Positions 6,698-18,687 of a stretch of DNA of 64,000 bases are shown in pieces. The DNA lies in NCBI GenBank assembly GCA_001281695.1, contig LJIE01000001.1:4048551-4112550 (forward strand), written 5' to 3'. Position numbers and translations under genes: made by a program. This DNA is from a bacterium 336/3 (GTDB lineage Bacteria; Bacteroidota; Bacteroidia; Cytophagales; Thermonemataceae). Position 1 is the first letter of the stretch. Every line of letters starts with the position of its first letter. The notes beneath the pieces were generated by a model. The model saw only the letters and a list, made by a program, of their open reading frames with translations, ran no database searches and was not told the DNA's origin.

Positions 6698-6771
6698 GGT
6701 TCCGTAGCTCAGCTGGATAGAGCAACTGCCTTCTAAGCAGTAGGTCATTGGTTCGAATCCAATCGGAATCA
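6698..6771 (+). tRNA. tRNA-Arg (anticodon TCT)
   Basis: A complete 74-nt cloverleaf can be folded by eye. The acceptor stem pairs 6698-6704 with 6764-6770, with discriminator A at 6771. The D stem is GCTC/GAGC. The anticodon stem ACTGC/GCAGT encloses CTTCTAA with TCT at 6732-6734. The T arm has stem ATTGG/CCAAT and loop TTCGAAT. CCA is not encoded. It reads AGA codons, which are heavily used in this AT-rich genome. Confidence 0.97.
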
Positions 6772-6773
6772 CG

Positions 6774-6907: not shown

Positions 6908-7301
6908 TTATTTTTTTTCTAAAATAATATCAAAAACCTTTCCATCTTCTGTATTAACCATCTGTCCCTTCATATAACTCATATCAGTTTTATAAAACAA
7001 ACTTATATTAGCTGTTTCTTTTTGATTTGTGTACTCTTGAATGTTTATTCTAATAGGAGAGAAATCTTTAAATTCTTCTTTTTTTTGATTTTTTAAAAAA
7101 ATGAAGTACAGTTAATTGGAAGTTTCCCGACTCTACCTGTGTAAGTATATCTTACAGTATCATAAGTATCTTCTTTTTCTGTATTTTGCTTTGGTATAGT
7201 ATCTTGAGGCTTTTTTATTTTCTCACTTTGCTGAACAGAACTAGTCTTATCATTTTTACATGATACAAAAAATAAATAAAGTCCTATAACATCGTTTTCA
7301 T
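6908..7301 (-). pseudogene. Decayed lipoprotein gene with two frameshifts
   Basis: From an ATG at 7301 the frame reads MKTM-L and stops at once, but one base out of frame it continues as GLYLFFVSCKND, a signal peptide ending in a lipobox cysteine. That second frame runs to NCTSFF and stops inside a T7A6 homopolymer near 7094-7106. Adding one T there would continue a frame through KDFSPIRINIQEYTN to a stop at 6908. So about 130 codons of a small lipoprotein are broken twice. It lies directly downstream of the intact lipoprotein gene and may once have been part of that operon. A sequencing error could explain the homopolymer break but less easily both. Confidence 0.6.
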
Positions 7302-7371
7302 TATAAAAAGTCTTTTTTTAACTTTGACTCTGCTAACTATCATGATAACCTTAATTCCATAATAATAAATT

Positions 7372-8130
7372 TTACTCCTTTTTCTTATTATAAATAATTT
7401 CTCCAATATATTCGTTATCTTTTTTATAAATAGCTATCAGCATCTCAACATAACTACCATCTTGAGCATATCTTTTCCAAATTAAATTTATTTTGTCATT
7501 TTCTTCATAAACTTTGTCTATTTCATCATAAGCTACATCAGTGTCTATAAAGTGTAAATAATCAAAGTTTCTATAGTATTCATTAGTGTTTATTAATTTT
7601 ATGGGTGTTATATCGTTTTTTTTCTTATTTTTCAATACGACTGGATTGAAATTGGTACATCCAGTTGGCATTTGATTATCAAACGCTTTCATTACATAAT
7701 TATGTGAAAATATGAGTTCTATATCATTGTGAATTGTATTCAATTGTTTATTTTGCTTGTTATTTATGTCTAATTCGTAAACTAAATCTCCATTTACAAC
7801 ACCTTCTAAATTACCTACTTTAATTTTCACATACTTGAAGCTTTTACAAGTATCATCATTTGAGTTTAATTTATAAAAGCTTTCACTAACACCTAATATA
7901 TCTACACTATGCTTATTCAAATAAGATATATCTTTGCTATCATTACTATCATTTATTAAAATTTTAATATTATCTCCTAATAAAATACCATTTTTATTAA
8001 GTTTTTGATATACAATTTCAGATTTCATCATATTTTCATTATCAGTATTTTGTATTTGTTTTTTATTTTCTTGATTTGTACAAGAAAATGCATATAAAGT
8101 TAGGAAAATTGGTATTATTGTTTTGTTCAT
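7372..8130 (-). CDS. Lipoprotein of unknown function, possible partner of the 990-residue protein
   Basis: The protein has 252 residues with a lipoprotein signal (MNKTIIPIFLTLYAFSC, lipobox AFSC), then a very Asn/Lys/Asp-rich mature part with no domain I recognise. It starts 32 bp downstream of the stop of the 990-residue peptidoglycan-hydrolase-like protein on the same strand, so the two are probably cotranscribed. This order, large cell-wall hydrolase followed by a small lipoprotein, resembles effector/immunity pairs, but that role is only inferred from position. Confidence 0.55.
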   Translation of the reverse strand: MNKTIIPIFLTLYAFSCTNQENKKQIQNTDNENMMKSEIVYQKLNKNGILLGDNIKILINDSNDSKDISYLNKHSVDILGVSESFYKLNSNDDTCKSFKYVKIKVGNLEGVVNGDLVYELDINNKQNKQLNTIHNDIELIFSHNYVMKAFDNQMPTGCTNFNPVVLKNKKKNDITPIKLINTNEYYRNFDYLHFIDTDVAYDEIDKVYEENDKINLIWKRYAQDGSYVEMLIAIYKKDNEYIGEIIYNKKKE

Positions 8131-8162
8131 AATTTTACAATTATATCTTCATGTATCAATTA

Positions 8163-11135
8163 TTAAAAAATAGGTATTCGTATTTCTGCAACTGTAAATT
8201 TAGCATTTTTAACTCCACCCCATCTTTTGTCTCCTAATAATTTTTCTCCATCAATCATAAATAAATTTTCCGCATGATAACCTTGTGAATTTGTCCAAGC
8301 AGGGTCAAAATATCTGTAATAAACTTTATTTTCTTTTACTATTTTCTCCATAATTACCACAAAATGTTCAGTAGTTTTATCTCTATTATACATTTCTGTA
8401 CGACCGTCATCAACTCCTACAAATACAGGGTGTCCATTATTTAACTCATCATCAATAAATTTAATTCCTATTTCAAGATTTCTATAATGATTTTTTCCAT
8501 TTATTTGCTCCATTATTTGTATACTTGCCTGAGCCTCAGCATTAGCAATATCTAATTTCCCTCCTTTTTGTTTCATCATGGCTCTAGCAGCATCATAACA
8601 ACAAACTACATTTTTCTTCCCTGCATATGTTTTTTCAGACTCATATAATCCTCTCCCAGAAGTTCCCTTTACTAAAGCAGGGAATTGAGAAATAAAATCA
8701 TCAGGAGACATCACAGCATTTATACTCTTTGTTTGTATTTTGTTTATAGATAGTGTAGATATTTTATTTAAAACATTATACCCACTTCCTCCTTTACTAA
8801 AAGTTCCATCTTTTGATATATAAGCTTTTTCTTCTAACATAATAAGCTCATCTTGAAATTTTTCTATTGCTTGAATAGTTTTAGTTAATTGCTTAACAGG
8901 TATAATATCGGTATCCTTTAAAGAACTTACATAAATTGTTTCTTCATTATTGTCCAAATAGTTTATGGCTATTAACTTATTTTGTATAATTTTTACATCT
9001 TTTGTAACATTTTTTCCTTTTTTGCCTACACTATCACTAATCTGTTCTCCAACATATCTATCATCTGTTTTTTGGGTTTGCTTTTTGTCAATATTGTTAA
9101 ACCCAAAATACTTCATTAAAGCTTTTAGCATTTCATATTGTTTTGTAACCCCCAACCCCTCAAAAAGATAATTAAAAGCTTCTAATCCATACTTTTTTAA
9201 CTCGCCCCATATATCATCTGCTATTTTTGTTTTTTCTTTATCTTTTTGTTTTTGTTGTTCTTGCTTTTTTCTTTCTTGTTCTAGTTGTAATCTTTTTCTT
9301 TCCTCTTCCAATTTTCTTTTTTGCTCTAAGGCATATTCTTGTCGAGCCTTTGTTACACTTTCTTTGATTGAATTCATTAATTTTTGAAGTGTACTTCCGT
9401 CAGGGTCAATTCGTCCATCTACCCCTTTTCTATTCACTTCCAACTGAAATATCTTAATAGCCTCAATGGTTTTGGGAATATCTTTAGATGTTACTTTATC
9501 TTTAGGAAAAGAAGGAACTTTTCCATACATCAATAGCATTCTTCGTTCATATTCAGACGTTTTATAACTATATAATTGCTCTTTTTTTTCTTCTTTTGGG
9601 ATATCAGTAGTTGTATTTGGGTCTACTTGTTTTTCATCAACTATTTCTGGAGTATTTATAATAGGTGGCAAATGAACTTCTTCTAATTCAATATTTTTAA
9701 CAGGTTGTTCTTTTTGATAATCTGCTTCTGATAATAAACCTATTTCGTAAAGTTTTTCTTGTATTACAAGTACATCTTCTGTAAAATTTATCATATCCTC
9801 TTTATATGTACCATTAGGTAAACCTACTGAAAAGCCCCATCTTGATTTAGCTGGAGGGCTTGTCAATATTTCAGGCATATTTAGTTTTGTCCCTGACTCA
9901 AAATAACTTTTTCCATCTTTTTCTTTAAGTTTTGTTTTATTAGCATTTGTCAAATCTTGAGCACTTACACCATATTTATCTGATAGTTTATCTATGTTTT
10001 CTCCCTTTTGAACAATTCCTCTTTTATTTTGCGTAATGGTTTGTGAGTTAGTATTTGGTGTAGTAGTTTCTGGTTTAAGATTACTGTATTTCTGATTAGA
10101 CATTAAGTCAGGGATAGTACCTCCCATTTCTGCCAAAAAGTACAGAATATTAAGTGTTGTTCCATTTTTACCTACAACTCCATCTGTTAAACCTTTTCTT
10201 TGTATTTCAATATCTTCTAATGATTTTTTAGTAGCAGAAGGATGAGATTTTCCAGCATCTTCTATAATTTTTATTCTCTTTTTATACCATTCTGCTGTAA
10301 CAGGAGCAAGTTCAGTATCTTGAAAAGTTTGTATAGCTTCTGATACTTTATCCACATCTTCTATTTCTGTTTTTTTAAGATACCCAAGTTTTACAAGCAT
10401 TGAGCCAACTTTTTTTACATCTTCAAGAAAATTTTTACCTCCCTTACCAACACTTCCTTTTAAAGAAAAATCTCTATTCATTCTACCTACTTCAGATTTA
10501 ATATGTGTTTCATAATGAGGGTTTGAGGCAAAAACTCCTTTGTTATCATGTCGGAGCATACCATTATTTTTGATAATATCATTTCCTGTTTGCTTTCCTC
10601 CAAGCCATCCTTTTGCCATACCCAGATAATATACATCAAATCCATCTTCAATCGTTTTAATACTTTTAGCTGTTTTATTATCACCTGCATCAGTAGCACC
10701 CATATGGAAAATATTACCAGAACTTCCACGTTCATGCCTATAAACACCACCCTCTAAATATGCTTGAGCAAGAGCTATTTCAACGGGAACAACATAATTC
10801 AAATCTCCATATTTGTCATATACTTTTCTTGCTGCATTCGCAAAATGTGAACCTTTTAGTTGTAAATCAGCATTTATATTTTTTTTTGAATACCATATAT
10901 TTAACTGATTTTGAGCAACCTGTTCGTATTTTGCAAAATATTCATTTTCCTTTCCTTTTTCAATTTCTTTTTTAGGTAATTCTTGTCCTTTTAAAGTTTT
11001 TGTGGTTTGTTCTTGCTGTTTTAAAGCTGTTGCTAATTGTTTATCCATATTGTTAGTAACCATTGGAACTTTTTGTTCTTGGTTATTAACTACCCCACTA
11101 TCAACAATATTTTGTTTGGTATCTAAAGAGTACAT
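8163..11135 (-). CDS. Large modular cell-wall hydrolase-like protein (lysozyme-like, repeats, LysM, papain-like peptidase)
   Basis: The protein has 990 residues and no signal peptide. Residues about 63-225 resemble a glucosaminidase/lysozyme-like fold (VPVEIALAQAYLEGG, then SGNIFHMGATDAG). A LysM module occupies about 372-421 (GIVQKGENIDKLSDKYGVS). Three related blocks beginning SVG (about 228-345, 436-600 and 700-815) share SVG-x-GK/N, DV-x-x-IQ-x-KL and AI-x-FQ patterns like peptidoglycan-binding modules. A Lys/Glu/Gln-rich coiled coil lies at about 605-650. The C-terminus (824-990) looks like a C39/papain-type peptidase with Cys845/846, His924 in EHFVVI and Asp944 in YFDPAW. Absence of a Sec signal suggests export by a specialised machine. 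It is divergent from an injection-system-type AAA+ ATPase. Confidence 0.65.
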   Translation of the reverse strand: MYSLDTKQNIVDSGVVNNQEQKVPMVTNNMDKQLATALKQQEQTTKTLKGQELPKKEIEKGKENEYFAKYEQVAQNQLNIWYSKKNINADLQLKGSHFANAARKVYDKYGDLNYVVPVEIALAQAYLEGGVYRHERGSSGNIFHMGATDAGDNKTAKSIKTIEDGFDVYYLGMAKGWLGGKQTGNDIIKNNGMLRHDNKGVFASNPHYETHIKSEVGRMNRDFSLKGSVGKGGKNFLEDVKKVGSMLVKLGYLKKTEIEDVDKVSEAIQTFQDTELAPVTAEWYKKRIKIIEDAGKSHPSATKKSLEDIEIQRKGLTDGVVGKNGTTLNILYFLAEMGGTIPDLMSNQKYSNLKPETTTPNTNSQTITQNKRGIVQKGENIDKLSDKYGVSAQDLTNANKTKLKEKDGKSYFESGTKLNMPEILTSPPAKSRWGFSVGLPNGTYKEDMINFTEDVLVIQEKLYEIGLLSEADYQKEQPVKNIELEEVHLPPIINTPEIVDEKQVDPNTTTDIPKEEKKEQLYSYKTSEYERRMLLMYGKVPSFPKDKVTSKDIPKTIEAIKIFQLEVNRKGVDGRIDPDGSTLQKLMNSIKESVTKARQEYALEQKRKLEEERKRLQLEQERKKQEQQKQKDKEKTKIADDIWGELKKYGLEAFNYLFEGLGVTKQYEMLKALMKYFGFNNIDKKQTQKTDDRYVGEQISDSVGKKGKNVTKDVKIIQNKLIAINYLDNNEETIYVSSLKDTDIIPVKQLTKTIQAIEKFQDELIMLEEKAYISKDGTFSKGGSGYNVLNKISTLSINKIQTKSINAVMSPDDFISQFPALVKGTSGRGLYESEKTYAGKKNVVCCYDAARAMMKQKGGKLDIANAEAQASIQIMEQINGKNHYRNLEIGIKFIDDELNNGHPVFVGVDDGRTEMYNRDKTTEHFVVIMEKIVKENKVYYRYFDPAWTNSQGYHAENLFMIDGEKLLGDKRWGGVKNAKFTVAEIRIPIF

Positions 11136-11155
11136 ATTCCTTAAATTATTTTCTA

Positions 11156-11163
11156 TAAATTTG
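11156..11163 (+). promoter_or_regulatory. Possible -7 element of the AAA+ ATPase gene
   Basis: TAAATTTG matches the TAnnTTTG consensus 33 bp upstream of the ATPase ATG, within the 61-bp divergent gap. No convincing -33 element is visible at the usual spacing. Confidence 0.3.
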
Positions 11164-11196
11164 TTCTAAAATTACTCCAATTTTACATACTTATTT

Positions 11197-12585
11197 ATGA
11201 CTGACAATTTAGAGAATTTTTATAATTTTTTCAAGCAAGAAAGCTTTTGGTTTTTTAGTGTTATAAAGAGACAATTATTTTTACTTAAATCCCAAGAGGA
11301 TTTATCTATATTACCAAGTCCAGAATTATCTAGTTTTCAAACACTCTATAATCAATTTATTATAAAAAACAGCCTAACTGAACAAGAGAGGCTTGTTTTA
11401 ATGTTAGCGATTATTCCTGAAATACAACCTGATTTATTAGATTTTTTACTTTCAGAGAATTTAACAGCATTGGGAAGATACCAAGATAACTCAAAGTTAG
11501 GCTTTATTCCTTCTGGTTATACTGCTTTATTTCTATTAGCCAATAACCCTCAAGACATGGGAGAAGCTTATTTTTATAATTACCCAATCATCAAAAAACT
11601 GCTTGATAGAGGATTTATCAATTTAGAAAAAAATCCAAGTAACCCATCTAACAATTCTTTAATTCATGGTAGATTAGTAATTTCTATTGAAATTTTACAT
11701 CTTATTGCCTCCAATGAACCCTTTTCTCCAAAATACTCACAAGAGTTCCCTGCCAGCCTATACACTACAGAAGAAACTTGGGATGATTTGATTCTCAACC
11801 CTTCTGTGAGAGAATGTTTGATGGATGTAAAGGCTTGGATGAAACATTATCCCACTCTCAATAAAGATGAAAACTACAAAGGTTCTAAAGGTTTCAAGGC
11901 TCTTTTTTGGGGTGAATCTGGAACTGGGAAAACTGTCAGTGTGGGTATTTTGGGAAAAGAAGTTGGTAAAGATGTGTATAGAATTGACCTTTCTCAAATT
12001 GTGTCTAAATATGTGGGAGAAACAGAGAAAAACCTTAAATATGTGTTTGATTTGGCTCAAAACAAAGATTGGATTTTATTTTTTGATGAAGGAGATGCTT
12101 TATTGGGTAAAAGAACTGATAACAAATCAGCCAATGACCGTTATGGAAACCAAGAAATTGCCTATTTACTTCAAAGAATGGAAGATTTTGATGGGATTTT
12201 GTTTTTGTGTACCAACAAAAGAGATAATTTGGATGAGGCTTTCAAAAGACGTTTTCATTTGAGATTTGAGTTTAGTCAGCCCTTTTCTTCTATTCGTTTT
12301 GAAATATGGGCAAAGGCATTTGAGGAATTTTATTTCAACAATGTACCCATGGAGTATACAGCAGAAAAACTCAAAGATATGAATGGAGCTTGGATAAAGA
12401 GTTTTGCTCGTTATTGTAAAGTTCAAGCTTTAGAAGATACAACAGACAAAGCTTATGTATTTGACAGAGAAAAATTTTATAGGACACTGAGAAACTTCTA
12501 CATTGCTCAGGGCAAGGGTTATCATGATGTTACAGCCATTTGTAAGGAACTAAGCCTTCCTATGTGGAAAGATATTATTGTGTAA
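11197..12585 (+). CDS. AAA+ ATPase of the contractile-injection-system (Afp15-like) type
   Basis: The protein has 462 residues. The N-terminal half (about 45-175) is predicted helical with LTEQERLVLMLAIIP and the characteristic FIPSGYTALFLLANN, resembling the N-domains of ATPases encoded in Bacteroidota extracellular contractile injection loci. The AAA+ core has Walker A GESGTGKT at 239-246, Walker B ILFFDEGD at 293-300, a sensor-1 Asn340 in CTNKRDN and an arginine finger at 351-352. In such systems this ATPase assists particle assembly; its exact role is not settled. No sheath, tube or baseplate gene lies in this window, so the gene is an orphan or remote from its cluster. Confidence 0.75.
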   Translation: MTDNLENFYNFFKQESFWFFSVIKRQLFLLKSQEDLSILPSPELSSFQTLYNQFIIKNSLTEQERLVLMLAIIPEIQPDLLDFLLSENLTALGRYQDNSKLGFIPSGYTALFLLANNPQDMGEAYFYNYPIIKKLLDRGFINLEKNPSNPSNNSLIHGRLVISIEILHLIASNEPFSPKYSQEFPASLYTTEETWDDLILNPSVRECLMDVKAWMKHYPTLNKDENYKGSKGFKALFWGESGTGKTVSVGILGKEVGKDVYRIDLSQIVSKYVGETEKNLKYVFDLAQNKDWILFFDEGDALLGKRTDNKSANDRYGNQEIAYLLQRMEDFDGILFLCTNKRDNLDEAFKRRFHLRFEFSQPFSSIRFEIWAKAFEEFYFNNVPMEYTAEKLKDMNGAWIKSFARYCKVQALEDTTDKAYVFDREKFYRTLRNFYIAQGKGYHDVTAICKELSLPMWKDIIV

Positions 12586-12617
12586 AACAAAAGCCTCGTT
12601 TAAACGAGGCTTTTGTT
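12586..12617. terminator. Bidirectional terminator between the ATPase and ctp genes
   Basis: A perfect 32-bp palindrome (arm AACAAAAGCCTCGTTT) lies directly after the ATPase stop and overlaps the last two bases of the convergent S41 protease gene. A-rich and T-rich flanks allow it to serve both strands. Confidence 0.85.
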
Positions 12618-14277
12618 ATTTCTTCTTTAAAATTTCTTTATACTTAGCAGGGTTTTTTAATATTTTAACAGCTTCTTGTAGTTCTTTGTCATTATCAAAT
12701 TTAGCTTCAGTTTCTCCTTTTTCTAAATAATATCTTGTACAAATCTCCTCTTCCAGAAGCTCTCTAATTTCATTTTTGAAAGTTATCAAATCAACTTCTT
12801 TATTTTTAGAAATACGTCCTTTAAGCGTATTCAAGTCGTTTTGTATTAAATCATAAGTTTTATCTTTTTTAGCTGCATCTATCAAATCTTTATAGCTTTT
12901 TTCCATTTCGGTGGTATAAGCATAATCTTTATTTTTTACCCATGTTACAAATGCCTGATATTCTGCATCTGAAAGAGCAAACTCTCTTGCAGGTTTGATT
13001 TGACTATTTTTAAGAGCATACTCATTGGCATATTCAAAAATAAGGTTTTTAGTTACAAGACTTTGAGCAATGGGGCTTAGATTTTCTTTCTCAATAATTA
13101 CATCTGGCTCCAAACCAGCACCATCATAAACTGTTCTTCCACCTTTAGTTTTGAAAGCTCTTCGTAATGAATCAGGTATTTTAGCTACTTTACCTTGGTC
13201 ATCTCTGTTGCTATAATCCAAAGCCTGAATACATCTGCCACTAGGCACATAATATTTAGCTACTGTTATTTTTACTTGCGAATTATAAGTAAGTGGTCTT
13301 GTACTTTGTACCAAGCCTTTTCCGAAAGAACGTTGTCCCACAAGTACTCCTCTATCGTAATCTTGAATTACTCCTGAAACAATCTCGGATGCAGATGCAC
13401 TTCTGCCGTTTACAAGTACTACTAATGGAATATCTGTATCAATGGGTTGCCTAAGTGATTTGTAAGTTTTATTCCATTCTGCAATTTTCCCTTTCGTGAA
13501 AACAACATCTAAATCTTTGGGTAAGAATAAATTACATATATTTACAGATTCATTTAAAAGTCCTCCAGGGTTTCCTCTCAAATCTAAAATAATACTTTTG
13601 GCTCCTTTACTTTTTAATTCTTCTACACTTTTACGAATACTCTCTGCTGCACCTTGTGTAAATTCACTTAAATAGACATATCCTATACCATCTTCTATTA
13701 TTCCATGAAAAGGAATATTATCAACTTTAATTCTTTCTCTTTTTATTTTGATTTTCTCTGTTTGTGTAGAACCATAATGTCTGATAAGCAATTCTATTTC
13801 AGTATCAGGTTGCCCTTTGAGCAAACGGCTAATATCACTTTGATTTTTACCAGTTACTTTTACTTCGCCGATTTGCAATATTTCGTCTCCAATTTTTAAT
13901 CCACTTTTGAGAGCTGGAGAGTTTTCCATAGGCATAATAACTGTTACTTTTCCATTTCGTGTGCCTACAGTTGCCCCAATACCTCCATATTCGCCTGTGG
14001 TCATGGTCCTGTAATCTTCTATTTGGTCTTCAGAAATATAGACCGTATAAGGGTCTAAAGATTTGAGCATGGCATCCAAGCCAGTACGCATAATTTTATT
14101 GGGATTCACTTCATCCACATAATAATTGTTCACTTCTTTGTAGAGTGTTGTGAAAATATCAATGTTTTTGGCTATTTCGAAGGCATTGTCTTGTGGGTCT
14201 TTTTTAAATGCTAAAAAAGTAGTAACAGCCAGTGCTAATAGCACCAAAGTAGTTAGATTTCTCCTAATAGTTTTCAT
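12616..14277 (-). CDS. S41-family C-terminal processing peptidase
   Basis: The protein has 553 residues. A membrane anchor or signal lies at 7-24. A PDZ domain spans about 95-178 (YGGIGATVGTRNGKVTV, ALKSGLKIGDEIL). The S41 catalytic domain spans about 185-380 with LDLRGNPGGLL, Ser293 in GRSASASE and Lys320 in FGKGL as the Ser/Lys dyad. A C-terminal helical region follows. Such proteases cleave periplasmic or envelope proteins from their C-termini. It is convergent with the AAA+ ATPase and shares its terminator. A -7-like TAtaTTTG lies at 14310-14303 on the minus strand. Confidence 0.9.
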   Translation of the reverse strand: MKTIRRNLTTLVLLALAVTTFLAFKKDPQDNAFEIAKNIDIFTTLYKEVNNYYVDEVNPNKIMRTGLDAMLKSLDPYTVYISEDQIEDYRTMTTGEYGGIGATVGTRNGKVTVIMPMENSPALKSGLKIGDEILQIGEVKVTGKNQSDISRLLKGQPDTEIELLIRHYGSTQTEKIKIKRERIKVDNIPFHGIIEDGIGYVYLSEFTQGAAESIRKSVEELKSKGAKSIILDLRGNPGGLLNESVNICNLFLPKDLDVVFTKGKIAEWNKTYKSLRQPIDTDIPLVVLVNGRSASASEIVSGVIQDYDRGVLVGQRSFGKGLVQSTRPLTYNSQVKITVAKYYVPSGRCIQALDYSNRDDQGKVAKIPDSLRRAFKTKGGRTVYDGAGLEPDVIIEKENLSPIAQSLVTKNLIFEYANEYALKNSQIKPAREFALSDAEYQAFVTWVKNKDYAYTTEMEKSYKDLIDAAKKDKTYDLIQNDLNTLKGRISKNKEVDLITFKNEIRELLEEEICTRYYLEKGETEAKFDNDKELQEAVKILKNPAKYKEILKKK

Positions 14278-16507: not shown

Positions 16508-17458
16508 CTATCTCTTTTTAGGCTTCAAAACAGGCTCATAAACTATATTCTGTCCACAAAGAGTATTTAAGCAAGTTACCAAGTTTTTGGTATGTAAGCC
16601 CAAAACTGAATTGTAATCATCTTTTCGATAGCCTCCAAACAGACCAAGTATCAAGGGAAGAGGTTTTTGTCGCTTTTCATCCAATTTCTTGACAAAGTCA
16701 TAGACAATATGGGCACATTCTATCCATTCGGCTGTGGTACACTGCCCTTTGGTATCATCATCTTCATGGCTATCAGCTCCATGACAAAAAACCACATATT
16801 CAATGCGTTTTTCGTTGATAGCATCTCTCAACAAACCCAACTCACGCCTTAAATTGCTGATAAACTTTTGGTGTTTGTCTTCAGGATTGATATTACCAAT
16901 TCCTTTGGGAATAGCCAAATTCAAATCAGAAACAAACTTTCGAGCATCTTCGATGCTGTTTCCGAAATGCCCATCAAGGTCTATATAAGCACCTCGTTTG
17001 CCAGTTTCCCTAAAAACTTTGACAGAAGCAATTACCTGCCCCGAAAAAGTACAATATCCCAAACCATGCTCTGGTAAGGCATGGTGGAAACCACAAGCAG
17101 GGTTAAAAGTTACTTTTTCTGGGTTTTCCAAAGCAAATTTAATAGCATGATACAAACTGGCATTGGTGTATCGAATAGTTTCGGCGAATTGTGGCGACCA
17201 GTCCAGATTGCTACTTTTAGTCCAAAGACGTTTTCCTGCAAAGAAACCATCTACATACTCTCTTGTATGAGCTAAATAAAACTCTTCTTGTGAGAAGGGT
17301 TTGAAATCGTCTTTGATGGTAAAATGCCCAGATAGTTTGTTTCTTTCAAGAAAGTTCAGTAACAATTTAGGCTTTTGGGGAGATTTGGACACATTCTTCC
17401 CATTATTCTTCAATACCATATTTTCATGGTAGAAGGTATATATTTGTGCATTTCGCAT
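16508..17458 (-). CDS. Histone-deacetylase-superfamily protein, copy 1
   Basis: The protein has 316 residues from the ATG at 17458, chosen because the paralogue at 18687 starts at the same residue (MRxxQxYTFYxExMVLK). HDAC-fold residues are all present: the tandem histidines in GFHHA, the zinc ligands Asp and His in DLDGHFGN, the third ligand Asp in GADSHEDD, and the Gly-Gly-Tyr in FGGYRKDD. Relatives deacetylate acetyl-lysine, acetylpolyamines or other acylamides; the substrate is not predictable here. A promoter at 17689-17719 gives a leader of about 225 nt. Confidence 0.8.
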   Translation of the reverse strand: MRNAQIYTFYHENMVLKNNGKNVSKSPQKPKLLLNFLERNKLSGHFTIKDDFKPFSQEEFYLAHTREYVDGFFAGKRLWTKSSNLDWSPQFAETIRYTNASLYHAIKFALENPEKVTFNPACGFHHALPEHGLGYCTFSGQVIASVKVFRETGKRGAYIDLDGHFGNSIEDARKFVSDLNLAIPKGIGNINPEDKHQKFISNLRRELGLLRDAINEKRIEYVVFCHGADSHEDDDTKGQCTTAEWIECAHIVYDFVKKLDEKRQKPLPLILGLFGGYRKDDYNSVLGLHTKNLVTCLNTLCGQNIVYEPVLKPKKR

Positions 17459-17590
17459 GATTTTCAGGTTTAAATATCTCAAATAGGAAATACATCTCCA
17501 TAAGCATATAGAGATGAAAAAATGAAATACCTTGCCTGAAACAGCTAAAATCTGTCAGTGATAAAAATTACTTAAAAGAAAATGAAATGC

Positions 17591-17742: not shown

Positions 17743-18687
17743 CTACTTAGGCATCAAAACAGGCTCAAATTTAATTTCTTGCCCACAAAGTGTATTGAGA
17801 CAAATTACTAAATCTTTGACATGTAAACCCAAAACTGAATCATAATCGTCTTTACGGTAGCCTCCAAACAAGCATAATACAAGCGGAATAGACTTGTTCA
17901 GCTTTTCATCTATTTTCTTGACAAAATCATAGAATATCTCAGCACACATTATCCATTCTTGCGTATTACATTGTCCTCTAGTATCATCATCTTCATGACT
18001 ATCAGCACCATGACAAAAAACAAGATAGTTAATTTGATCTTCTAAAATAGCTGTTTCAAGAATGTTCAACTCTCTCTTAAAATTATCAATGTATCTCTCG
18101 TGGCTTCCAGAAGGATTGATATTTCCAAAACCTTTGGGAATAGCCTCATTCAAATCTTCTACAAAATTTCTAGAATCTTCAATACTATTACCAAAATGCC
18201 CGTCTAAATCTATATAAGCTCCTTTCATACCTGTTTCCCTGAATATTTTTATAGAAGCTATCACCTGTCCTGAAAAAGTACAATACCCCATACCATACAT
18301 GGGTTGAGCATGGTGGAAACCACTCACAGGACTAAAACAAACACTTTCTGGATTTTTTAAGGCAAACTTAATTGCCTCATATAAACTCGCATTGGTGTAT
18401 TGAACGGTTTCTACAAATTGAGGTGACCATTCCAAATTATTACTTTCCGCCAAAGGCTTTTTACCTACAAAGAAACTATCTACATAATTCTGAGTATGAG
18501 CTATATAAAACTCTTCTTTTGTGAAAGACTCAAAGTTTTGATGGATTTCAAGATATTTGAGAAGTTCATTTTTTTCAAGGAAGTCGAGAAACCACTTAGG
18601 TTTTTGAGGCGATTTAGAAAAGTTTTTTTCACTCTCTTTCAAAACCATTTTCTCATTATAAAAAGTGTATAATTGAGATTTTCGCAT
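17743..18687 (-). CDS. Histone-deacetylase-superfamily protein, copy 2
   Basis: This 314-residue protein aligns with copy 1 end to end almost without gaps. Conserved blocks include FSKSPQKPK, NASLYEAIKFAL, GFHHAQP, GYCTFSGQVIAS, DLDGHFGNSIED and FCHGADSHEDDDT. All zinc ligands and the catalytic histidines and tyrosine are kept, so both copies look active. Divergence is concentrated in residues 30-110 and 200-235. It probably arose by tandem duplication. A -7-like TAatTTTG lies at 18736-18729 on the minus strand, without a well-spaced -33 element. Confidence 0.8.
   Translation of the reverse strand: MRKSQLYTFYNEKMVLKESEKNFSKSPQKPKWFLDFLEKNELLKYLEIHQNFESFTKEEFYIAHTQNYVDSFFVGKKPLAESNNLEWSPQFVETVQYTNASLYEAIKFALKNPESVCFSPVSGFHHAQPMYGMGYCTFSGQVIASIKIFRETGMKGAYIDLDGHFGNSIEDSRNFVEDLNEAIPKGFGNINPSGSHERYIDNFKRELNILETAILEDQINYLVFCHGADSHEDDDTRGQCNTQEWIMCAEIFYDFVKKIDEKLNKSIPLVLCLFGGYRKDDYDSVLGLHVKDLVICLNTLCGQEIKFEPVLMPK

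Follow-up and report, generated by a model that had tools for sequence, protein, structure and literature searches.

A predicted effector–loader pair away from the contractile injection locus of bacterium 336/3

Cargo choice by injection particles is an open question. Pvc15, the loader ATPase of the Photorhabdus virulence cassettes, an extracellular contractile injection system (eCIS), is required for effector loading; it stabilises and loads effectors that are picked by an N-terminal signal. The study in question (PMC11495950) assigns no role to the Pvc15 N-domain and asks whether the 'key' of loading is the signal peptide, Pvc15 or both. A comparable ATPase is encoded in a stretch of 64,000 nucleotides (the window, C1:4048551-4112550) of the 4.7-Mb genome of bacterium 336/3 (G000), divergently from a 990-residue enzyme that is followed by lipoprotein genes. 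The explanation favoured here, with moderate confidence, is that this pair is a second copy of the ATPase–enzyme pair at the end of the genome's eCIS locus. The ATPase would load the enzyme, a predicted antibacterial effector, into a shared syringe, and the lipoprotein would protect the producer.

Pvc15, Afp15 and the window ATPase are alike in being eCIS-linked AAA ATPases with a separate N-domain. Pvc15 is an accessory gene of its operon (PMC11495950), whereas the genome described here has four ATPase copies, each divergently paired with its own partner. AlgoCIS, a Bacteroidota contractile system, has two lumen cargos, Cgo1 and Cgo2, which share a central DUF4157 domain and differ in their C-termini; the main text of the AlgoCIS study (PMC8894135) makes no mention of an ATPase. 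DUF4157 is absent from the window enzyme by Pfam, but three distant relatives of its scaffold (P0006-P0008) carry it (PF13699, DUF4157/eCIS core), one of them under the name 'eCIS core domain-containing protein'. The eCIS-associated toxins (EATs) are a comparable group, in which LysM and DUF4157 occur alongside peptidase or wall-hydrolase domains, with antibacterial activity and, for some, immunity genes. They differ in that most descriptions place them within eCIS operons or close by; most of those tested as antibacterial have no recognisable immunity gene, and the word 'ATPase' is absent from both main texts (PMC8213781, PMC11297309). BtaeB–BtaiB, a pair of the Bacteroides fragilis type VI secretion system (T6SS), is delivered by a machine different from an eCIS; the comparison made below covers the C-terminal domain of BtaeB.

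The window pair and the injection locus

The preliminary description of the window had reported an AAA+ ATPase, a 61-bp gap, a divergent 990-residue protein without a Sec signal, and an intact and then a broken lipoprotein gene; both the arrangement and its coordinates were confirmed.

11197..12585, + strand: AAA+ ATPase of 462 residues, predicted effector loader (PF00004, E 1.9e-23; 63% identical to the paralog at the genome's eCIS locus)
11197-11742, + strand: N-domain of the ATPase, residues 1-182, as used in the N-domain/motor chimera analysis
11767-12585, + strand: motor of the ATPase, residues 191-462, as used in the same analysis
11136..11196, no strand: 61-bp divergent intergenic region between ATPase and enzyme, alignable with its counterpart at the main locus and likely a shared promoter region
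8163..11135, - strand: 990-residue enzyme without a Sec signal, predicted effector
9108..11135, - strand: conserved scaffold of the enzyme, residues 1-676, common to the main-locus paralog and P0002
10473..10868, - strand: glucosaminidase/lysozyme-like region, residues 90-221, a motif-level reading, kept in relatives and without a Pfam match
9867..10028, - strand: LysM domain, residues 370-423
8163..8768, - strand: C-terminal papain-like protease domain, residues 790-990 (Cys845/846, His924, Asp944)
7372..8130, - strand: lipoprotein of 252 residues, candidate periplasmic immunity protein, 32 bp downstream of the enzyme (lipobox AFSC17)
6908..7330, - strand: second lipoprotein gene, a broken remnant with pieces in two frames

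A search of the whole genome for eCIS families, proposed in the preliminary description, identified sheath, tube, spike and baseplate genes at C1:1799162-1809752, on the same contig as the window and 2.2 Mb away. This main locus encodes a sheath (PF04984 and PF17482), a gp19-type tube, CIS_tube, a Phage_base_V spike, gp25, Baseplate_J and Pvc16_N; a CIS_TMP tape-measure protein is encoded at C1:1855806. At the end of the locus lies an ATPase (C1:1810905-1812239) that is 63% identical to the window ATPase. As in the window, it is divergent from its enzyme (C1:1812291-1815137), here a 948-residue protein that is 62% identical over window residues 1-717. The label 'orphan' given to the window pair therefore suits the window, which has no syringe genes, but not the genome, which has an eCIS locus with a paralogous pair. 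Among the options first considered, a split locus, a satellite effector island or a separate system, the satellite effector island fits best. The preliminary description would have been contradicted if neighbours in related genomes never included the hydrolase or any injection gene; this was not the outcome, as the paralogous pair ends an injection locus.

One sheath gene was detected in this genome against four full-length ATPases, three of which are sited away from the structural genes. The divergent partner of the ATPase k1846 (C1:1846055) is a LysM protein of 444 residues, with a lipoprotein after it; that of k1761 (C1:1761780) has 579 residues and carries LysM and CHAT domains (PF12770, E 8.5e-23). 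Each of the four ATPases is divergent from a protein that has a LysM match and, as judged by inspection, no Sec signal; only the LysM match of the window protein passes the Pfam cut-off, the other three scoring 19.4-20.4 against 20.9. The 579-residue protein of the locus L014 (C1:1759977-1763177), with its caspase-like CHAT domain, is a possible injected caspase-like cargo.

The family of the window ATPase goes with contractile systems across genomes. Two sets were searched, both of which include the genome itself and which overlap in few others. In the first, the genome and its relatives (59 genomes), a full-length ATPase was called at E <=1e-50, a line drawn after the hits had been seen. In the second, 296 genomes of the class, the line of E <=1e-45 was fixed before the sheath search, and at most five ATPase candidates were scored per genome. 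A sheath match was found in 12/12 ATPase genomes vs 4/47 others in the first set (Fisher 1.6e-9) and in 37/38 vs 7/258 in the second (Fisher 7e-39), where G319 is the one ATPase genome without a detected sheath. These sheaths were called at E 0.001, and the Pfam cut-off was also passed in 10 of the 16 sheath genomes of the smaller set and 22 of the 44 of the larger. The assignment of the ATPase to the eCIS type in the preliminary description was right on this evidence, and a placement outside the eCIS clade, raised there as the contrary outcome, was not observed, since the ATPase tracks contractile systems.

The same association is seen at the level of loci. A recognised ATPase open reading frame was present at 103 of 108 loci (the 80 named loci being the best 80 of 574), and structural eCIS markers lay within about 10 kb at 65 of the 103, at 64 of these through markers identified by Pfam. 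The marker types were tape-measure (62 loci), a protein like that at C1:1796212 (40 loci), which belongs to no Pfam family, baseplate-J (30) and sheath (4). Of the markerless loci, 25 have flanks exceeding 3 kb on either side and 13 have shorter ones. Ten aligned ATPase copies share invariant residues G239, K245, D297/E298 and R351/R352, which we take to be those of Walker A, Walker B and the arginine fingers. Copies of the ATPase also occur on plasmids of Persicobacter and Aureibacter, marine Cytophagales, at up to four places per record, so the cassettes may be mobile.

N-domain and motor of the main-locus ATPase

Sequence comparison shows that the main-locus ATPase is a natural chimera, its N-domain and its motor differing in ancestry. 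Against the window ATPase, its N-domain is 68% identical and its motor 54%. Against k1846, the N-domain is 32% identical (53/167; 22% in another alignment) and the motor 98% (248/253). The DNA of the latter two motors is 98.2% identical, with a sharp edge near residue 182 and zero nucleotide differences over residues 225-399 of the main-locus ATPase. Codons differ at 20 of the 42 N-domain residues that the two share, vs 0 of 175 within that identical span. The trees conflict, placing the window and main-locus ATPases together in the N-domain tree (support 100) and the main-locus ATPase with k1846 in the motor tree (100). Because motors are normally better conserved than N-domains (between-genome mean identity 0.42 and 0.24, respectively), the data are most simply read as a main-locus loader that retained an N-domain matching its enzyme and acquired a motor of the k1846 type.

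The comparison was widened to 108 within-genome ATPase pairs from 14 genomes, taken from the fetched copies, with weak and partial matches left out and no more than five candidates per genome scored in the class-wide search; the G087 pair compares only 12 N-domain positions. The window and main-locus ATPases form the only pair of the 108 in which the N-domains are more alike than the motors. Motors are at least 90% identical in four pairs (G000, G004, G052 and G158), and in all four the N-domains are at most 56% identical. A silent-site edge is clear in the G004 and G052 pairs and softer in G158.

Large neighbours of the ATPases at L196 and L197 (G158) and L183 (G257), 33-43 bp away, have acidic N-termini; around residues 35-60 they seem by eye to share a W-P-x-(L/V)...K stretch, which is a candidate for a loading signal.

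The enzyme, its C-terminal domain and the lipoprotein

Judged by alignment, the window enzyme is a carrier scaffold with a swapped C-terminal domain, the switch lying near residue 677. Pfam finds one LysM domain and a sub-threshold peptidoglycan-binding motif in it, and by inspection its N-terminus has no hydrophobic stretch. It shares 431 of 676 residues with the main-locus paralog over residues 1-677, where the similarity stops abruptly, and 546 of 670 (81%) with P0002, encoded on a 987-kb JGI contig, up to residue 677, after which identity falls to about 20%. The C-terminus of P0002 resembles that of the main-locus paralog instead (138/208). This alternative C-terminus has no Pfam match; a relative of it (49% over 181 residues) lies beside an ATPase in G052 and is weakly YkuD-like (E 0.062, below cut-off). 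The window C-terminus is common to P0009 (56%), P0010 and P0011, whose N-terminal parts differ; P0011 carries LysM and DUF4157. The window enzyme, P0002 and the main-locus paralog thus combine a conserved N-terminal part with unrelated C-terminal domains, the pattern by which polymorphic toxins are recognised.

The C-terminal domain is homologous, in sequence and in fold and over its whole length, to the C-terminal domain of the T6SS effector BtaeB (PDB 9jdd). This entry, a co-crystal of an antibacterial effector and its immunity partner, is the nearest solved structure to the papain-like domain. Cys846 and His924 align with the Cys and His of 9jdd and are kept in P0009-P0011, and Asp944 stands opposite a Glu. 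The identity of BtaeB is taken from the title of 9jdd, and the entries 9jg8 and 9jg9 are sequence matches; full-text literature searches by name, entry codes and subject gave nothing recognisably on BtaeB. A topoisomerase-cutting papain-like toxin (Cpe1) was considered after a C39 match, but this idea was given up once the entry had been identified as BtaeB. The homology to BtaeB, together with the domain swap, strengthens the earlier suggestion that the enzyme is an effector, and the match connects T6SS with eCIS by way of a single toxin domain.

A lysozyme-like N-terminus could not be kept as a firm call: it has no Pfam match, residues 1-245 have no PDB sequence match at E 0.1, and the glucosaminidase/lysozyme-like assignment is therefore a motif-level one. 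A pattern scan of genome contigs with the enzyme alignment gave 234 pattern matches, none of them a relative. In G052, positions 8069-10593 of the locus L076 (contig C1) hold a 572-residue protein with the same glucosaminidase-like region (35% over 139 residues) and, by eye, a peptidase M15-like C-terminus. A lipoprotein gene comes after it, and the 20 kb read there yielded no ATPase of the window family.

The window lipoprotein has four homologues of 35-77% identity and could be the immunity factor for the enzyme. Similar combinations, in which a Sec-less protein is accompanied by a lipoprotein, also lie beside the ATPases at k1846, L065 (G052) and L072 (G004). The predicted structure of the lipoprotein, with a predicted local distance difference test score (pLDDT) of 66.6, gave no PDB fold match below E 0.001, and the best PDB sequence match of its profile (E 0.0057) is an unrelated enzyme subunit and not the BtaiB entry. 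A distant relative (28%) in G056 (contig C39, L161, 7984-8835) adjoins a gene that by eye is WD-repeat-like, so that the lipoprotein family may have roles other than immunity.

Proposed role, competing explanations and surroundings

If the window ATPase acts by analogy with Pvc15, its N-domain would bind the N-terminal scaffold of the divergent partner enzyme, and a generic AAA motor would feed this cargo into the particle encoded at the main locus. After injection, the LysM and other wall-binding parts would act at the peptidoglycan of the prey, while cleavage of a target, at the peptidoglycan or beyond, would fall to the papain-like domain. The lipoprotein, exported to the periplasm of the producer, would neutralise the enzyme there. 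A broader and more tentative proposal is that plug-in cassettes scattered over the genome arm one syringe, each effector bringing a loader composed of a cargo-reading N-domain and an interchangeable AAA motor that docks on this common syringe. The N-domain would then be the 'key' of loading, and evolution may already have made the domain-swap experiment in this genome.

Several observations weigh against these proposals. Loading, toxicity and immunity are predictions throughout. Where Pvc15 has AAA domains in tandem (PMC11495950), the window ATPase has one, with a single PF00004 match in its 462 residues. The AlphaFold model of the full-length enzyme has a mean pLDDT of 54, and its structure matches span only the C-terminal domain and LysM stretches. 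No lipoprotein adjoins the main-locus effector, the profile of the window lipoprotein matches no chain of the BtaeB–BtaiB entry 9jdd, and the 16 kb read around its relative in G056 contain neither such an effector domain nor an ATPase of this kind. At 39 loci without nearby structural genes, a Sec-less neighbour of at least 700 residues occurs at 10 vs 4.3 expected (p 0.003), but one of at least 300 residues at 19 vs 16.9 (p 0.29). In the one family in which cargo tracking was tested across genomes, the neighbours at L067/L068 and L074 are homologous and yet the N-domains are only 21% identical, leaving the N-domain untied to cargo there. The two further same-genome pairs with homologous neighbours (L067/L068 and L069/L071) have motors more alike than N-domains. 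A permutation over five same-cargo pairs gave p 0.0007 for the N-domain and 0.0095 for the motor; its partners were assigned by hand, and it is not relied on. Finally, the motor-sharing pairs of G004, G052 and G158 are sisters in both trees, and they therefore point to motor homogenisation or fast N-domain change and to no proven swap.

The last points lend some weight to a different explanation, in which the N-domain differences carry no cargo information. They would stem from rapid change, whether neutral or diversifying, or from docking to particles of different types, the motors being alike by gene conversion. The generally faster change of N-domains noted above, the sister position of three of the four motor-sharing pairs and the result from the single family tested would all fit it. 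This explanation is possible but on the whole unlikely. One sheath gene was detected in G000, so that different particles are improbable there, its two trees conflict at full support, and the contrast in codons between N-domain and motor is sharp. In addition, the partners of the window and main-locus ATPases share a scaffold, and theirs is the one pair with more similar N-domains.

A smaller probability attaches to the view that the 990-residue protein is a structural wall-drilling enzyme of the tip or baseplate, like a phage spike lysozyme, and no lumen cargo, the ATPase being an assembly chaperone. The LysM, peptidoglycan-binding-like and, at motif level, glucosaminidase-like parts suit a tail-tip lysin, and the paralog comes after structural genes. 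Such an enzyme would not be expected to come with four loaders whose partners have unrelated compositions (LysM only, or LysM and CHAT), to exchange its C-terminus on a kept scaffold, or to end in a domain that matches a T6SS effector.

Release of eCIS particles needs lysis of the producer, and the enzyme, with its wall-binding modules, hydrolase and no apparent Sec signal, might be an endolysin-like factor serving that purpose, with the lipoprotein as a brake. This is improbable: the solved structure nearest to the papain-like domain is an antibacterial effector with an immunity partner, four different partners per genome are unexpected for a lysis gene, and the lipoprotein is missing beside the main-locus copy. 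Least probable is that the window carries a duplicate pair in decay that no longer has a function. The second lipoprotein gene is indeed broken, and full-length ATPase and enzyme are both absent from the three same-genus genomes searched. Against this, both large reading frames and the first lipoprotein gene are intact, the ATPase retains its Walker A, Walker B and arginine-finger positions, and in P0002, which is encoded on a different contig, the scaffold is still 81% identical over 670 residues.

The effector–loader proposal is made of known kinds of part, namely an eCIS, a loader ATPase, a polymorphic effector and a papain-like toxin domain. Within the literature searched, neither a role of the N-domain in cargo choice nor loader–effector pairs outside the structural locus were found in print. 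As far as these searches reach, the new element is that several loader–effector cassettes beyond the structural genes would serve one detected sheath, with reshuffled loader N-domains and motors. One detected sheath gene, four loaders and a ready-made chimera make the question of cargo choice directly testable. The arrangement also suggests that eCIS effectors can sit far from the structural locus and be traced through their ATPases; operon-centred screens could miss such distant effectors.

The module is bordered on one side by a tRNA gene and adjoined on the other by a protease gene.

6698..6772, + strand: tRNA-Arg (TCT), identified with ARAGORN
12616-14277: protease gene, by eye similar to C-terminal-processing proteases

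Insertion at the tRNA-Arg gene was considered by tracing the protease gene into seven genomes and reading four loci. Gene order is not kept around the protease gene, and for this reason no empty site could be demonstrated. Further along the window, two tandem and nearly alike open reading frames (16508-17482 and 17743-18687) have, by eye, the look of the histone-deacetylase/acetoin-utilisation family.

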